A stretch of 64,000 bases of DNA from Planotetraspora kaengkrachanensis (GTDB lineage Bacteria > Actinomycetota > Actinomycetes > Streptosporangiales > Streptosporangiaceae): the NCBI RefSeq assembly GCF_016862895.1, contig NZ_BONV01000001.1:1-64000 (forward strand). Direction: 5' to 3'. The number at the start of each line of letters is the position of its first letter. Within the stretch, counting starts at the first letter, position 1. Below are positions 6,196 through 54,657 of the stretch, piece by piece. The translations under genes were made by a program, and so were the position numbers. The notes beneath the pieces were generated by a model. That model was not told the DNA's origin. It ran no database searches and saw nothing but the letters and a program-made list of their open reading frames with translations.

Positions 6196-6269
<74 letters not shown>

Positions 6270-27020: not shown

Positions 27021-27101
27021 GGGGTTTCATCCGTGGGGTTTCATCCGTGGGGGTTCATCCGTGGAGACCCATCCGTGGGCTCATTCGCGGCTCATCGTGG
27101 G
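27021..27101. repeat. Tandem 15-bp repeats at a convergent junction
   Basis: Four copies of GGGGTTTCATCCGTG or close variants run from 27021 to about 27079, then decay into CTCATTCGCGG and CTCATCGTGGG. They fill most of the gap between the GNAT stop and the F420-oxidoreductase stop. Confidence 0.75.
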
Positions 27102-28553: not shown

Positions 28554-28988
28554 CGTGATCATGCACAGGTTCGACCCCCTTGGCGTGATCATGCCCAGGT
28601 TCGACCCCCTTGGCGTGATCATGCACAGGTTCGGTGCTCAGCCCACCGACCAGCGCCGACCCAAGCCGTGATCATGCAGGACTTCGCTGCGACGGCGCCT
28701 GACGTGCGGAAATCCAAACCGTGATCATGCACGGATTCGAGGAAACGTAGCCCGACAAGCATGGATTCCGTTCGTGATCATGCATGAGTGGAGGCGGGAG
28801 TAGCCCAACAAGTCACCTGCGTGATCACGAATGCCATCACGCCAGGTCAGCACCTTAGACACGGAACCTGTGCATGATCACGGAAGGCATGGCCCCTGCT
28901 CAGCGGCATGATCGGCGAATCCGTGCATGATCACGGCTTGGGTCGGCGCAGGTGGGCGGGCTGAGCACCGAACCTGTGCATGATCACG
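28554..28988. repeat. Dyad array A of 53-bp units beginning GTGATCATGCA
   Basis: Forward copies of GTGATCATGCACAGGTTCG or variants start at 28555, 28585, 28615, 28668, 28721 and 28774. The first two steps are 30 bp and the rest exactly 53 bp. Reverse-complement copies end at 28828, 28881, 28934 and 28987, again exactly 53 bp apart. Each forward start plus its mirror end sums to 57602, so the array has a perfect dyad at 28801. The outermost pair (28615-28667 against 28935-28987) agrees at 50 of 53 positions; inner units are more diverged. The array fills the gap between the PPOX gene and the ThDP-enzyme gene. I do not recognise the family. Confidence 0.92.
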
Positions 28989-32964: not shown

Positions 32965-33594
32965 TTGGACACATCCTTCTTCCTGGCCTGGATCAAGGAG
33001 GCCGCGTCAGCCGTACAGGCCGAGCGTGATCACCTGACCCAGCTCGACGCCGCGATCGGCGACGCCGACCACGGCGCCAACCTGGATCGGGGCTTCGCGG
33101 CCGTACGCCAGACCCTGGCCGACACGCCTCCGCAGACGCCTGGCGGCGTCCTGGTCCAGGCGGGCTCGGCGCTGATCCGCAAGGTGGGGGGCGCGTCCGG
33201 CCCGCTGTACGGCACGGCCTTCCGGCAGATGGGCCGGGCGCTCGGCGACGCTCCGGAGATCACACCGGCCGACCTGGTCACCGCGCTGGAGGCGGCCCAG
33301 GAGGGCGTACAGAAGCTCGGCGGGGCGGCGGAGGGCGACAAGACCCTGGTGGACGCGTTCGCTCCCGCCGTCAGGGCCCTGGCGCAGGCCGTACGGGACG
33401 GGGCGAAGCTGGAGGACGCCCTGGAGACGGCGACCGCGGCCGCTCAGGAGGGCGCACAGGCGACCGTCCCGCTGCAGGCGCGCAAGGGCCGGGCCAGCTA
33501 CCTCGGCCCGCGCAGCGTGGGGCACGAGGATCCCGGCGCGGCGTCCACGGCGCTGATCTTCGCCGCCCTGCGGCGGGCGGCCGGGCAGGCGTGA
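32965..33594 (+). CDS. dhaL: Dihydroxyacetone kinase ADP-binding subunit DhaL
   Basis: The 209-residue all-alpha protein has the metal-ADP motif DAAIGDADHGANLDRGF, KVGGASGPLYGTAF, and the C-terminal ARKGRASYLGPRSVGHEDPGA. In PTS-type systems DhaL keeps ADP bound permanently as a cofactor that shuttles phosphate from DhaM to dihydroxyacetone on DhaK. TTG 32965 is chosen because AAGGAG at 32953-32958 lies six bases upstream. Its stop overlaps the dhaM start. Confidence 0.95.
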   Translation: MDTSFFLAWIKEAASAVQAERDHLTQLDAAIGDADHGANLDRGFAAVRQTLADTPPQTPGGVLVQAGSALIRKVGGASGPLYGTAFRQMGRALGDAPEITPADLVTALEAAQEGVQKLGGAAEGDKTLVDAFAPAVRALAQAVRDGAKLEDALETATAAAQEGAQATVPLQARKGRASYLGPRSVGHEDPGAASTALIFAALRRAAGQA

Positions 33595-33989
33595 TGGACG
33601 GCCAGGCCCGGCCGATGGTCGGGATCGTCATCGTCTCCCACAGTTCGAGGCTGGCCGAGGAGGTGGCGGCGCTCGTCCGGGAGTTCGGCGGCGAGAACGT
33701 CCCGGTGGCGGCGGCCGGGGGCACCGACGACGGGCGTCTCGGCACGAGTCTGGGCAAGGTGATCGCGGCCGTCGAGAGCGTCGACCGGGGGGCGGGGGTC
33801 GTGCTGATCCCCGACCTCGGCAGTTCGGTGCTGACGGCCAAGCTGGTGGAAGAACCGGGATCCGTGGTGATCGCCGATGTGCCGTTGGTGGAGGGCGCGA
33901 TCGCGGCCGCCGTAACGGTGGGAGGAGGGGGCTCCCTGCCGGATGTCCTGTCCTCCGCCGAAGAAGCCAGAACCTTCCGCAAACTCTGA
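33591..33989 (+). CDS. dhaM: PTS-dependent dihydroxyacetone kinase phosphoryl donor DhaM
   Basis: The 132-residue product is a single EIIA-Man-like domain with the active histidine in IVIVSHSSRLAEEVAALV and the GAGVVLIPDLGSS segment. The HPr and EI-like extensions of enterobacterial DhaM are absent, so it must take phosphate from the cell's general HPr. GTG 33591 or ATG 33594 is the start, overlapping the dhaL stop. Repeat array B begins 17 bases after its stop. Confidence 0.92.
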   Translation: MMDGQARPMVGIVIVSHSSRLAEEVAALVREFGGENVPVAAAGGTDDGRLGTSLGKVIAAVESVDRGAGVVLIPDLGSSVLTAKLVEEPGSVVIADVPLVEGAIAAAVTVGGGGSLPDVLSSAEEARTFRKL

Positions 33990-34005
33990 CCCCCACCTTT
34001 TGTGG

Positions 34006-34501
34006 TGATCATGCACAGGCTCGCGCGGATGCCTCCCGACGTGCACAAACCCTCGGCGTGATCATGCACAAGTTCGCCTGAATGCTGTCCGACGTGCGCA
34101 AACCTCCCGCGTGATCATGCACACATTCGGGCCTACACCGCCCCACCTGCGGATTCACCATGCGTGATCATGCACAGATTCAGCGAAGTGCCCACTGATC
34201 TGCAGCCTCGCCGATGACGATCATGCAGCAGCCTGAGCATGCCCCTCGACCACAACCACAGGTACGGCCGGCACCCGCGCATGATCACGATCATCGTCGC
34301 CCCAGGTCGAGACCGCCTTCGCCGAACTCACGCATGATCACGACCTGAGATTACGCAGGTCAGACGGCGCCCCACCGAGCCCGTGCATGATCACAAACAA
34401 GGAACGCGCCGCTCAGACCGGCAGCACACGAACCTGTGCATGATCACGGCCAGGGGGTCGGCTGGTCAGACGGCATCTCACCGAACCTGTGCATGATCAC
34501 G
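34006..34501. repeat. Dyad array B of 53-bp units beginning GTGATCATGCA
   Basis: Forward units start at 34006, 34059, 34112, 34164 and (diverged, ACGATCATGCA) 34217, spaced 53, 53, 52 and 53. Inverted units end at 34288, 34341, 34394, 34447 and 34500, spaced exactly 53. Mirror pairs sum to 68505-68506, giving a dyad centre near 34253. Beyond the 19-base head, the body of the unit is also conserved among copies (GATGCC, then TGAC or CGAC, then a C-rich GGC end) and is related to array A. The array fills the space between the convergent dhaM and Smr genes. Confidence 0.92.
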
Positions 34502-34519
34502 CGGGGGTAACGGGAGGGG

Positions 34520-34771
34520 TCACCAGCGGAAGTAGACGAACAGGCGGCCGTGGTTTTTGGCGTCCTTGTCGATCCGGTGATAAAGCGCCTTGATCTCCTT
34601 CTGCTCCAGGAATCGCAGCACTTTCTTCTTCAGCTGTCCCGAGCCCTTGCCCGGAATGATCTCCACTTGGGTGGCCTTCTTCTGGACCGCCTCCTGGATG
34701 ATGCCGCGCAGCGCACGGTCGATCTCGCCGCCCTTGTTGTAGATGTCATGGAGATCCAGCTTGAGCTTCAC
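34520..34771 (-). CDS. Small Smr-domain protein
   Basis: The 83-residue protein is a bare Smr (MutS2 C-terminal-like) domain. LDLHDIYNKG at residues 5-14 and IIPGKGSGQLKKKVLRFL at about 38-55 are the LDxH and TGxG-type motifs. Smr domains bind or nick DNA or RNA. Here nothing else is attached, unlike MutS2. The upstream 200 bases to the protease gene hold the divergent promoters. Its stop lies 19 bases from array B. Confidence 0.87.
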   Translation of the reverse strand: MKLKLDLHDIYNKGGEIDRALRGIIQEAVQKKATQVEIIPGKGSGQLKKKVLRFLEQKEIKALYHRIDKDAKNHGRLFVYFRW

Positions 34772-52617: not shown

Positions 52618-54657
52618 TTAGAGGCCGACCGCCGCGTAGAGTTCCCCGACCTCCTGGACGGTCAATGTCCGGATCGTGCCCGGCTTGAGCCGGCCCAGCT
52701 TGACCGGGCCGAACTCGATGCGGGCGAGATCGATCACCCGGTGCCCGGACGCCTCGAGCAGCCGCCTGACGATGTGCTTGCGCCCCTCGTGCAGGATGAT
52801 CTCGACCAGCGCCTGCTGCCCGTGCTCCTGGACGACGTGGAACTCGTCCACCTTGGCCAGGCCGTCCTCGAGCTCGATTCCCTTGCGCAGCACCCGGTGC
52901 AGGTCGCGGGGAACGGGACCGGGCACCTTGGCCCAGTACTTCTTCTGCACGCCGTAACTCGGGTGGGTCAGCCGGTGGGCGAGCTCTCCGTCGTTGGTGA
53001 ACAGGAGCAGGCCCTCGGTCTCGGTGTCCAGACGTCCCACGTGGAACAGCCGCGTGTTGAGGTCCTGGACGTAGTCCTGGAGGCACGGACGGCCGTCCGG
53101 GTCCTCCATGGTGCTCACGACGCCGATCGGCTTGTTCAGCGCGTAGTAGACGAGCTCGGGCGAGGTCGGGATGCGCTTGCCGTCGACGTGGATGACCTGC
53201 TTGACCGGGTCGACCCTGGCCCCGAACCTGCGGACCACCTGGCCGTCGACCGTGACCCGGCCGTCCCCGATCATCTCCTCGCTGGCCCGGCGGCTGGCGA
53301 TGCCGGCCTGCGCGAGGACCTTCTGCAGCCGCTCGCCGCCCGGCACCTCCGTGGTGTCGCGCTCGTCGACGTAGTCCGCGTCGTAGAAGTCCGGGTCGCG
53401 CAGCGGCTGCCGGGAGGTCTTGAACGGGTTCTCGCCGGCCTTCCCCGCCCCGCCGCGCGCGCCCGCCGGGGCGCCGCCGCGCGTTCCGTACGGCTTGGCC
53501 TCCGGCCTGCCCCCACGGGACGCGCCGCGGCGCAGGTCGCGGCGCGAGCTGTCCTTGCCGAAGCGGGCCCGCGTGCCGCCGCCGCGCTCGCCCGTGCCGC
53601 TCCGTCCGGCGCCGTCGCGGCGGGAGCCGCCGCGGGTGCTTTCGCCGAGCGTCTGGACCTCGTCCGACCGGTCGCTCCTGCGGGAGTAGCCGGTGCGGGC
53701 GCCACCACGGTCGGCCCGCAGTCCCGGCCTGTCCTGCCCGGACGGACGGCCGCCGCCGCGCCGGTCGTCAGGCCGATCCCGGCTCTCGCCCTGGCCACGC
53801 CGGTCACGACCGCCGTCCCGGCCGGAGGCGCGCACGTCGTCGCGCGGCGCGTACCCGCGATCGTCACGGCCACGGTCGTCACGGGCACGGTCGTCACGGC
53901 CACGGTCGTCACGGCCGAAGCCGCGATCGGATGAGCCGGAGCCACGCCCGAAGCCGGGACCACGGCTGAAGCCGCGATCATCACGACCCCGATCGTCACG
54001 GCCCCGATCGTCACGGCCGAAGCCACGATCGTCACGCCCGAAGTCACGGCCTCCACGAGTCCGATCATCACGGGCACGGTCGTCGCGGCCGAAGCCGCGG
54101 TCGGATGAGCCGGGGCCGCGCTCGAAGCCGCGATCATCACGGGCACGGTCGTCTCGACTGAAGGCGCGGTCGTCGCCGCGGCCGCCGCGGTCGTCCTGGC
54201 GGCGGTCGGCGCGGGCGCCGTCCGGCCTGCCGTACCTGCCGCGTGAGCCGCCGCGATCGGCGCGGAAGGAGTCGCGGTCGCCGCTCCTGAAGCGGTCCCG
54301 GTCGCCGTCAGGCCTGCCGTAGGAGCCGCCTCTGTCGCCTGAATCGCTGTACCGGGAGCCGCCCTCGTAGCGGGATCCGCCGTCCCTGCGGGATCCGGCG
54401 CTGTCCGGCCGGTAGCCGGAGCCCGTGTCCGAGCCGCGGGAACCGCCGCGCCTGTCGTCCTGGGGGCGTCCCTGGGATCCACGGGATCCGCCCCGGAAAC
54501 CGCCGCCCGATCCGCTTCTCGGCGAGTCTCCCGAGCGGCCGCCCGACCCTCTTCTGGCGTCTCCGGCGCCGCGTCCGAACCCTCCGGTTCCTCCGCGCTG
54601 GCCGGCGTTCCGGCTTCGACCGCGTCCATCACCGGACGGGGTAGGCCTGCTGTTCAC
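52618..54657 (-). CDS. rluB: rRNA pseudouridine synthase RluB type with long RG/RD-rich N-terminus
   Basis: The 679-residue protein ends in a normal RsuA/RluB enzyme (about 435-679). It has an S4 domain (GERLQKVLAQAGIASRRASE) and the catalytic Asp in GRLDTETEGLLLFTND. It modifies 23S rRNA. The first 430 residues or so are low-complexity Gly, Arg, Asp and Ser with many DDRGRDDRG and GGSR repeats, like eukaryotic RGG RNA-binding tails. GTG 54657 overlaps the scpB stop and follows AGAGGAG, so the extension is translated. Confidence 0.92.
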   Translation of the reverse strand: MNSRPTPSGDGRGRSRNAGQRGGTGGFGRGAGDARRGSGGRSGDSPRSGSGGGFRGGSRGSQGRPQDDRRGGSRGSDTGSGYRPDSAGSRRDGGSRYEGGSRYSDSGDRGGSYGRPDGDRDRFRSGDRDSFRADRGGSRGRYGRPDGARADRRQDDRGGRGDDRAFSRDDRARDDRGFERGPGSSDRGFGRDDRARDDRTRGGRDFGRDDRGFGRDDRGRDDRGRDDRGFSRGPGFGRGSGSSDRGFGRDDRGRDDRARDDRGRDDRGYAPRDDVRASGRDGGRDRRGQGESRDRPDDRRGGGRPSGQDRPGLRADRGGARTGYSRRSDRSDEVQTLGESTRGGSRRDGAGRSGTGERGGGTRARFGKDSSRRDLRRGASRGGRPEAKPYGTRGGAPAGARGGAGKAGENPFKTSRQPLRDPDFYDADYVDERDTTEVPGGERLQKVLAQAGIASRRASEEMIGDGRVTVDGQVVRRFGARVDPVKQVIHVDGKRIPTSPELVYYALNKPIGVVSTMEDPDGRPCLQDYVQDLNTRLFHVGRLDTETEGLLLFTNDGELAHRLTHPSYGVQKKYWAKVPGPVPRDLHRVLRKGIELEDGLAKVDEFHVVQEHGQQALVEIILHEGRKHIVRRLLEASGHRVIDLARIEFGPVKLGRLKPGTIRTLTVQEVGELYAAVGL

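Follow-up and report, generated by a model that had tools for sequence, protein, structure and literature searches.

What is the array of short repeats that fills the gap between two convergent genes in this Planotetraspora genome, and what maintains it there? We analyzed the window, a stretch of 64,000 nucleotides that corresponds to C1:1-64000 of the host genome, G000, together with related genomes. A preliminary description of the window had reported two arrays of inward-facing units with a 53-bp period, called A and B here, and had argued that this architecture is the conserved property. The features needed to follow both arrays are listed below.

33594-33989, forward strand: EIIA-man domain gene (dhaM-like), the upstream neighbor of array B (PF03610, E 6.5e-21); its stop codon lies 15 bp before the first head
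33990-34004, forward strand: left C-rich leader of array B (CCCCCACCTTTTGTG), directly 3' of the EIIA-man stop codon
34005-34227, forward strand: forward arm of array B, with GTGATCATGC heads at 34005, 34058, 34111, 34164 and 34217, in exact 53-bp steps
34278-34500, reverse strand: reverse arm of array B, with head 5' ends at 34500, 34447, 34394, 34341 and 34288, in exact 53-bp steps
34501-34519, read on the reverse strand: right C-rich leader of array B, adjoining the Smr stop codon
34520-34771, reverse strand: Smr-domain gene, the convergent neighbor (PF01713, E 1.1e-14)
28555-28783, forward strand: forward arm of array A, with heads at 28555, 28585 and 28615 (30-bp steps), then 28668, 28721 and 28774 (53-bp steps)
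28819-28987, reverse strand: reverse arm of array A, with head 5' ends at 28987, 28934, 28881 and 28828 (the last with one mismatch)

Array B as one member of a genome-wide family

The head positions bear out the five forward and five inverted units described for array B, as well as its dyad near 34253 (the midpoint is 34252.5) and its place in the gap between the convergent dhaM-like and Smr genes (EIIA-man stop at 33989 on the forward strand, Smr stop at 34520 on the reverse). The spacing had been given as 53, once 52; the 53 is correct, and all spacings in array B have this value, steps of 52 being found in other arrays. The final forward head carries two mismatches (ACGATCATGC) and lacks the conserved body. 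What had been called a 19-base head common to A and B is actually GTGATCATGCA plus TTCG at positions 16-19. The arms of B were said to be less alike than those of A; this holds for the outermost unit pair (94% identical in A, 70% in B) but not for the mean identity of forward and reverse units with the last units omitted (63% in A, 60% in B), so the contrast is limited to the outermost units. Within the window, TGATCATGCA has 24 matches at no more than one mismatch, compared to a mean of 1.84 and a maximum of 5 in 100 shuffles.

Array A opens, at 28555-28624, with a run of three heads at 30-bp intervals (TRF unit CCCCCTTGGCGTGATCATGCACAGGTTCGA) ahead of its 53-bp part, each head being repeated together with its C-rich leader. 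Two other tandem repeats of the window are unrelated to the head: a 14-bp repeat at 27021-27079 (GGGGTTTCATCCGT) and, at 53861-54057, units of 15 to 21 bp containing CGTCACG. A tRNA gene at 6196-6269 on the reverse strand is the sole Rfam match in the window at the gathering threshold.

The proposal that A and B belong to one repeat family is supported. The 8.77 Mb host genome contains 786 exact GTGATCATGCA heads (384 + 402), compared to 0 for the reversed-pattern control. To define arrays, we chained heads with at most two mismatches at steps of 52-54 bp only; most array counts omit clusters with fewer than three heads, and gene ends were taken from our own script gene finder and not from annotation. 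The 1.39 Mb of the host genome examined in this way contains 26 array clusters (18.8 per Mb), which, extrapolated at the same density over 8.77 Mb, would give about 165. Array B is probably one among more than 100 evenly spaced intergenic repeat arrays in this genome. C1 has 95 exact heads and 17 clusters in 606 kb, and only 7 of the 138 exact heads of C1-C3 are centered in coding sequence. C2 has 7 heads and one cluster in 395 kb and shows no clear difference from C1 in gene length or GC.

Pairs of heads at exactly 53 bp occur in all five Planotetraspora genomes: 576 in the host and 680, 706, 151 and 668 in four congeners. Elsewhere there are 443 in one g59 genome (G059) and 11, 7, 2 and 1 in four g65 genomes; 15 further genomes among 297 have any such pair, with one or two each. 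Among the matches listed, the named records with 53-bp head spacing belong to Planotetraspora and Microbispora. The heads of P. thailandica are mostly CAGAAGTTCG, those of other Planotetraspora mostly CACAGGTTCG.

The arrays are inherited. Over about 200 kb of P. mira, six of seven array places (one of them a single head) are matched in the host, which agrees better with slow than with active spread. An array lies between a relA-family gene and its convergent neighbor in P. thailandica, A-T 1434, Microbispora G215, the host, G022, G077 and G059; in two g34 genomes, the same site holds arrays with GTGATCTTGCA heads. Losses occur as well: at three orthologous places, another species is without the array. 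Three comparisons of present and absent sites show no clear target duplication such as a MITE or terminal-inverted-repeat transposon would leave, but the flanks have diverged. A blastn search for relatives of the arrays on plasmids found none.

Several single sites may be recorded here. A lone isolated head, without an array, stands at corresponding places in two genomes (G000:C1:102510 and G125:C1:100831). In P. mira, 1.8 kb of small genes lie between two arms that stand 79 bp apart in P. silvatica (L091:2121-4347, L054:2512-3120); this is DNA inserted at the array center, and one of its genes encodes, by eye, an excisionase-like HTH protein. typA (BipA) lies between facing arms in P. mira and P. 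thailandica (L050:3279-5889, L120:1811-4224), and in P. phitsanulokensis (L117) the left typA arm is missing, with a possible worn first head remaining. In G041, of a genus without these arrays, L037:1501-1613 is a 53-bp tandem of a different unit, GATCATGAAGGCACCCCGGGATCGCG....

Anatomy, constraint and placement of the arms

An arm runs from a C-rich leader through phased heads, mostly three to five, whose bodies are weakly conserved, to a bare terminal head. Three heads are found in 76 arms, four in 68, five in 40, two in 16 and more in 3. Across 203 arms and 548 units, positions 1-10 (GTGATCATGC) are conserved at 98-100%, A11 at 88% and TTC at 16-18 at 90-99%; in the body, G34 A35 C36 C37 T38 G39 reach 73-97% (with A at 38 in a further 20%) and C53 89%. 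In the 512 units of spacing 53, the second conserved block reads [CT]GACC[TA]G at positions 33-39. A C-run precedes the first head, and past the last head there is no conservation beyond about GTGATCATGCA. The preliminary description had suggested aligning the units and asking whether anything beyond GATCATG is conserved; in the alignment, drawn from several genomes, conservation extends to TTCG and GACCTG, so the outcome named there as a refutation is not seen.

The same hierarchy is seen between species. Orthologous units mismatch at 2.7% of head positions (1-11), 4.6% in TTCG, 12.5% in CYGACCWG and 27-32% at free positions, so that heads are roughly tenfold more constrained than the free positions of the body. 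These figures come from the 27 of 52 aligned unit pairs that had a body identity of at least 0.7, and, because only recognizable heads could enter the comparison, the head figure is biased down somewhat.

Successive heads on the same strand are separated by 53 bp in 514 steps, by 52 in 29 and by 54 in 8, with a few others from 21 to 95. Adjacent arms meet head-to-head in 63 gaps and tail-to-tail in 2. The head-to-head gap itself is variable (mode 34, without a peak at 10.5 bp), and a single arm makes up 72 of 136 clusters, for which reasons we do not regard the dyad as the functional center; the 136 come from a slightly larger set of loci than the 95 clusters used for placement, all of which lie 1 kb or more from the ends of their loci. 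Phasing across the dyad was considered and rejected: R is 0.10 at 10.5 bp, and the maxima in 61 gaps, 0.32 at 9.9 and 0.31 at 11.3, may be caused by the mode.

Single arms also tend to face one another at a distance. In C1 and C3, the next arm after a single forward arm is a reverse one in all six cases; two reverse arms in succession occur four times. Of 13 neighboring arm pairs 0.4-5 kb apart, 9 are facing, 2 are forward-forward and 2 reverse-forward. Seven of the 9 facing pairs enclose exactly one gene, and two of these seven are orthologues.

The arms are placed at gene ends. The outer head lies at a 3' end in 96 arms (median 16.5 bp) and at a 5' end in 41 (median 74 bp); in 19 of the 96 it stands at exactly -4, so that its TGA serves as the stop codon. 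Convergent genes flank 41 of 95 clusters, compared to 20 of the 164 intergenic gaps in C1 that measure 150 bp or more. In nine classes of leaders, by gene end and distance, the composition from -20 to -5 is C 0.44-0.65 and G 0.09-0.19, compared to C 0.37-0.40 and G 0.35-0.36 in control 3' flanks (n=257). The bias is present at both kinds of gene end: the 68 arms that lie 13-30 bp from a 3' end, for example, have C 0.57 and G 0.12, and 13 arms at 5' ends have C 0.62 and G 0.10. It is weaker in arms more than 60 bp from a gene (C 0.44 and 0.48, G 0.19). An excess of C over G of more than 10 in 50 nt is seen in 63% of 147 leaders but in 5% of 582 controls. The array-bearing 3' ends (n=23) have a median folding z of -0.11, with 13% below -2, and no G+C-rich hairpin as in an intrinsic terminator; array-free convergent ends (n=60) have a median of -0.77, with 30% below -2, and 60 other ends a median of -0.58.

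This placement raises the possibility that the arms are helically phased sites for a DNA-binding protein, AbiEi-like or other, that insulates or stops transcription, the leader serving as a Rho-loading or stalling segment before the first head. The preference for 3' over 5' ends, the convergent positions, the lack of hairpins at ends with arms, the C-over-G excess of the leaders and the strong constraint on the heads are all consistent with it. In contrast, 41 of 137 arms lie at 5' ends, facing arms sometimes enclose whole genes such as typA, C2 has one cluster in 395 kb as against seventeen in 606 kb of C1, and array numbers track the putative nuclease described below rather than any evident need for terminators. 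We consider this unlikely as the main explanation of the arrays. Their use by the host as polar boundaries may be an added role or a rival explanation, and we do not rank it as the origin.

The claim that the architecture is the conserved property stands for Planotetraspora and its near relatives, where the period of 53 and the inward-facing heads are kept, but it does not reach the deepest level, as other actinobacterial families keep the head and not the architecture. CGTGATCATGCA is high-copy in several of these families, with differing periods and tails. Among 394 genomes of the class, copies of CGTGATCWTGCA number 613 in the host (G000), 289 in G325, 287 in G384, 101 in G531, 65 in G119, 35 in G323, 29 in G443 and 22 in G366, with 0-8 in the remaining genomes. 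Steps are mostly 37-41 bp in G325, 34-53 in G384, 31-44 in G443 and 32-34 in G531, and the tails differ; over all these families steps are mostly 31-53 bp, and heads are also found single, in hairpin-like pairs or outward-facing. Many CGTGATCWTGCA copies outside the genus are also preceded by C-rich stretches. The Microbispora arms examined start with GTGATCTTG[TC]A, mostly followed by GTGATCATGCA.

A putative nuclease gene beside the heads

In eight of nine loci, read over roughly 2 kb around the gene, a gene for a putative nuclease adjoins heads, and in six of the eight the heads lie on both sides. Six loci were chosen through the protein (G000, G215, G384, G025, G050 and G140; heads near the gene in G215 were known beforehand) and three through the heads (L100, L324 and L326). 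In the host, the gene is on a separate contig from array B, at G000:C58:39897-40862, between two arms of its own repeat.

Host G000 (L328): gene between arms, with five reverse heads and, within the part read, two forward ones
P. thailandica (L100): gene with an MTES_1575 domain between facing arms of 5 and 4 heads
Microbispora G215 (L329): gene between arms of 3 forward and at least 1 reverse heads
G443 (L324): gene between arms of 4 and 3 heads
G531 (L326): gene between arms of 3 and 2 heads
G384 (L330): gene beside three reverse heads, on the right side, the one side read
G025 (L332): head pair on one side of the gene
G050 (L333): heads on both sides of the gene, not inward-facing
G140 (L331): no heads beside the nuclease gene

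As a base rate, in the 1.39 Mb of the host genome arrays lie within 300 bp on both sides of 2 of 1234 genes and on at least one side of 45 of 1234. Four facing pairs spaced by about 1 kb were taken from G443 and G531: two (L324, L326) hold the nuclease gene and two (L325, L327) hold other genes.

The N-terminal half of the protein matches AbiEi: PADLOC models gave E values from 1.6e-16 (L328) to 2.3e-9 (L324) in the five proteins tried, and PF13338 matches at 3.3e-7 in L330 and below cut-off in L328 and L329. AbiEi proteins have a DNA-binding domain of the winged-helix type. The C-terminal half matches PF18741 above cut-off in L100, L328 and L329 and below it in L330, L324 and L326; a DUF559 match is weak, and above cut-off in L100 only. 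D224, E235-x-D237-G238-x3-H242, D251 and R254 (D, ExDG, H, D, RR) are invariant in six of six proteins and kept in three further aligned ones. By these residues, the PD-(D/E)XK-like core is present, and we refer to the protein as a putative Vsr-like nuclease. A profile search of solved structures returned matches at chance level (best E 0.2), an AlphaFold model from one sequence was too poor for a fold search (pLDDT 39), and no relatives were confirmed among viral contigs.

We compared the distribution of the gene to that of the heads. Among 297 genomes of the bacterial family, an orthologue of at least 286 bits is found in ten: four Planotetraspora, three Microbispora, G025, G050 and G090. 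Every one of these has a head family. CGTGATCATGC occurs 124 times in G025, 230 in G050 and 178 in G090, compared to 6-25 in 18 comparison genomes; these three were counted after the orthologue had pointed to them, local heads having already been read in G025 and G050, so that G090 was indicated by the orthologue alone. The comparison set consists of G114, 15 genomes whose homologues score 234-261 bits, G120 (E 2.4e-7) and G155, for which no match is listed. G114, a congener of G050 and G090 that is not among the orthologue matches, has 21 copies. The three Planotetraspora G022, G077 and G125 have 876-974 copies; counts elsewhere are 23 in G199, 23 in G084, 14 in G034, 41 in G193, 854 in G059 and 320 in G104.

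In Microbispora, the orthologue (365-369 bits) is present in three of four genomes with arrays and in none of 11 without (best E 8.9e-5). In G384, with 287 heads, a family member stands next to heads; G340 of the same genus, with 1 head, has no PF18741 match. G104 is without the orthologue (best E 7.3e-5); it has 151 pairs and 320 heads, and its four congeners have 576-706 pairs. Two further genomes have heads without a close orthologue: G059 has 854 heads and 443 pairs, its best match being 35% identical with one in-frame stop, and G193 has 41 heads and is not among the orthologue matches. These could reflect recent gene losses or a second enzyme. G084 and G034, with GTGATCTTGCA arrays at relA, have homologues that are only partial or weak (102 bits over residues 4-109; E 1e-19).

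Outside the bacterial family, PF18741 itself is unspecific: 27 of 30 genomes match it, head-less ones included. Family members are also present in G366 (22 heads), G323 (35) and G325 (289). G292 has a 49%-identical homologue matching from residue 8, yet background heads, and among homologues that match from residues 21-25, those of G037 and G240 are without heads and that of G025 (residue 24) is with them; an intact N-terminus alone is therefore no predictor of heads, and the split follows the overall score. A missing N-terminal domain as the cause of head-less homologues fits L331, does not hold cleanly elsewhere (G037, G240 and G292), and was rejected. Besides that of L331 (G140), nuclease homologues occur in many g4 and g37 genomes, and CGTGATCATGC is at background in those counted; these homologues may have their own, different repeats.

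Could the arrays instead be self-standing tandem repeats spread by recombination, with the nuclease gene merely often carried between them? Unrelated genes (typA, UbiA, a histidine phosphatase, GNAT and an M20 peptidase) also lie between facing arms, and in L106 we see, by eye, near-identical adjacent units and an inverted copy between the arms. However, the same gene family is a neighbor of heads in several bacterial families that differ in tails and steps, and within the bacterial family head abundance tracks the orthologue, which makes such hitch-hiking improbable. We give still less credit to a role in defense, with a Vsr- or restriction-like nuclease and the arrays as chromosomal decoys or recognition buffers: the AbiEi models do stem from a phage-defense library, and the nuclease domain matches the anti-phage proteins ProA and Hhe weakly, far below cut-off, but phasing, leaders and gene-end placement are not expected of decoys.

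The check for base pairing suggested in the preliminary description gave no pairing signal: in 346 units, mutual information rises clearly above the shuffled null only at positions no more than 2 apart, with no compensatory base changes. An RNA element in 3' untranslated regions, with which the sense orientation of the 96 of 137 arms 3' of a gene agrees, is hardly credible given this lack of long-range covariation, the absence of hairpin propensity at the 23 array-bearing 3' ends, a strict 53-bp spacing without evident meaning in RNA, the arms at 5' ends, and no Rfam match at the arrays at the gathering threshold.

A candidate partnership of enzyme and repeats

These results suggest an unrecognized enzyme-and-repeat partnership in bacterial chromosomes. 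We think it likely that arrays A and B are dispersed, enzyme-linked extragenic repeats, maintained by or for the AbiEi-like/Vsr-like protein. The data support a stable association between one protein gene and extragenic sites in the hundreds; binding, cutting and copying are inferred. Most simply, this protein would recognize CGTGATCATGCA, and a phased set of at least three heads (53 bp, about five turns) would load several copies of it side by side. Further, nicks or breaks at heads, repaired from other copies, would duplicate, invert and homogenize units; such repair would extend arms from gene ends toward the array center and preserve the heads. Where the gene is lost, the arrays would no longer be maintained and would decay, as may be the case in G104. 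Cutting and copying of this kind would be in line with the near-identical units and inverted copy of L106 and with the apparent decay in G104. Gene ends would then be a tolerated niche for arrays, with a possible secondary role as a transcriptional boundary.

The nearest kind of system in its manner of working is that of REPs and RAYTs. In one report, RAYT genes are flanked by inverted REPs and RAYT presence correlates with REP number (PMC2817692); another describes REPINs with single-copy, vertically inherited RAYTs (PMC8049555). By these reports, the likeness covers hundreds of short extragenic copies, an enzyme gene flanked by its own repeat, copy number that tracks gene presence, lineage-specific dialects and vertical inheritance. 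In contrast, the enzyme here is AbiEi-like with an MTES_1575/DUF559 (Vsr-like) domain and not a Y1 transposase of the IS200/IS605 type, and the head CGTGATCATGCA has no GTAG/GGAG-tagged hairpin and no pairing within the unit, the phased 53-bp arms and C-rich leader being features of the arrays here. A link to RAYTs was itself rejected: PF01797 is found in 9 of 23 genomes and is absent from 14, including the host and most array bearers (G000, G022, G104, G125, G059, G186, G215, G384, G325, G531, G443, G366, G323 and G340).

Other known systems share single traits. The CGTC-tagged palindromic hairpin repeats are reported from five phyla, actinobacteria not among them, and said to be without a dedicated transposase (PMC3733652); like the units here they are dispersed, short and often dimers, but theirs are CGTC-tagged hairpins. 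DUF559 is described in PMC12907096 as a domain often found in Vsr-like PD-(D/E)XK endonucleases, and Caulobacter VsrA is tied there to cytosine methylation, not to repeats; the proteins here match DUF559 weakly. The AbiEi antitoxins of type IV toxin-antitoxin systems resemble the N-terminal half of our protein, which matches AbiEi models, but here this half is joined to a nuclease domain, and the protein is associated with genomic sites in the hundreds. DNA uptake sequences are also short genome-wide motifs, sometimes in inverted pairs at gene ends; in contrast, the copies here are nearly all extragenic (7 of 138 heads centered in coding sequence) and form phased arrays. In the open-access literature, subscription papers and preprints aside, we found no report of this head or of AbiEi/DUF559 proteins with flanking repeats. 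We regard the system as new in its parts, since two defining features of REP/RAYT fail (the enzyme class and the hairpin repeat) and the pairing of enzyme and repeat was not found in that literature.

More tentatively, and with doubt slightly outweighing confidence, we propose that a domesticated AbiEi-like/Vsr-like nuclease reads CGTGATCATGCA, that its cutting and copying built hundreds of helically phased, C-led units at gene ends, and that the host uses them as polar boundaries. An unrelated enzyme would then have arrived independently at the REP/RAYT life-style. If true, partnerships of one enzyme with hundreds of repeats would not be confined to tyrosine transposases. It would also suggest a function for the AbiEi-plus-nuclease family, which is named by domain only in the libraries searched. 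The species in which the gene is present, the congeners in which it is absent and the one in which arrays appear to be decaying would together make a test system for the origin, maintenance and host use of such repeats.
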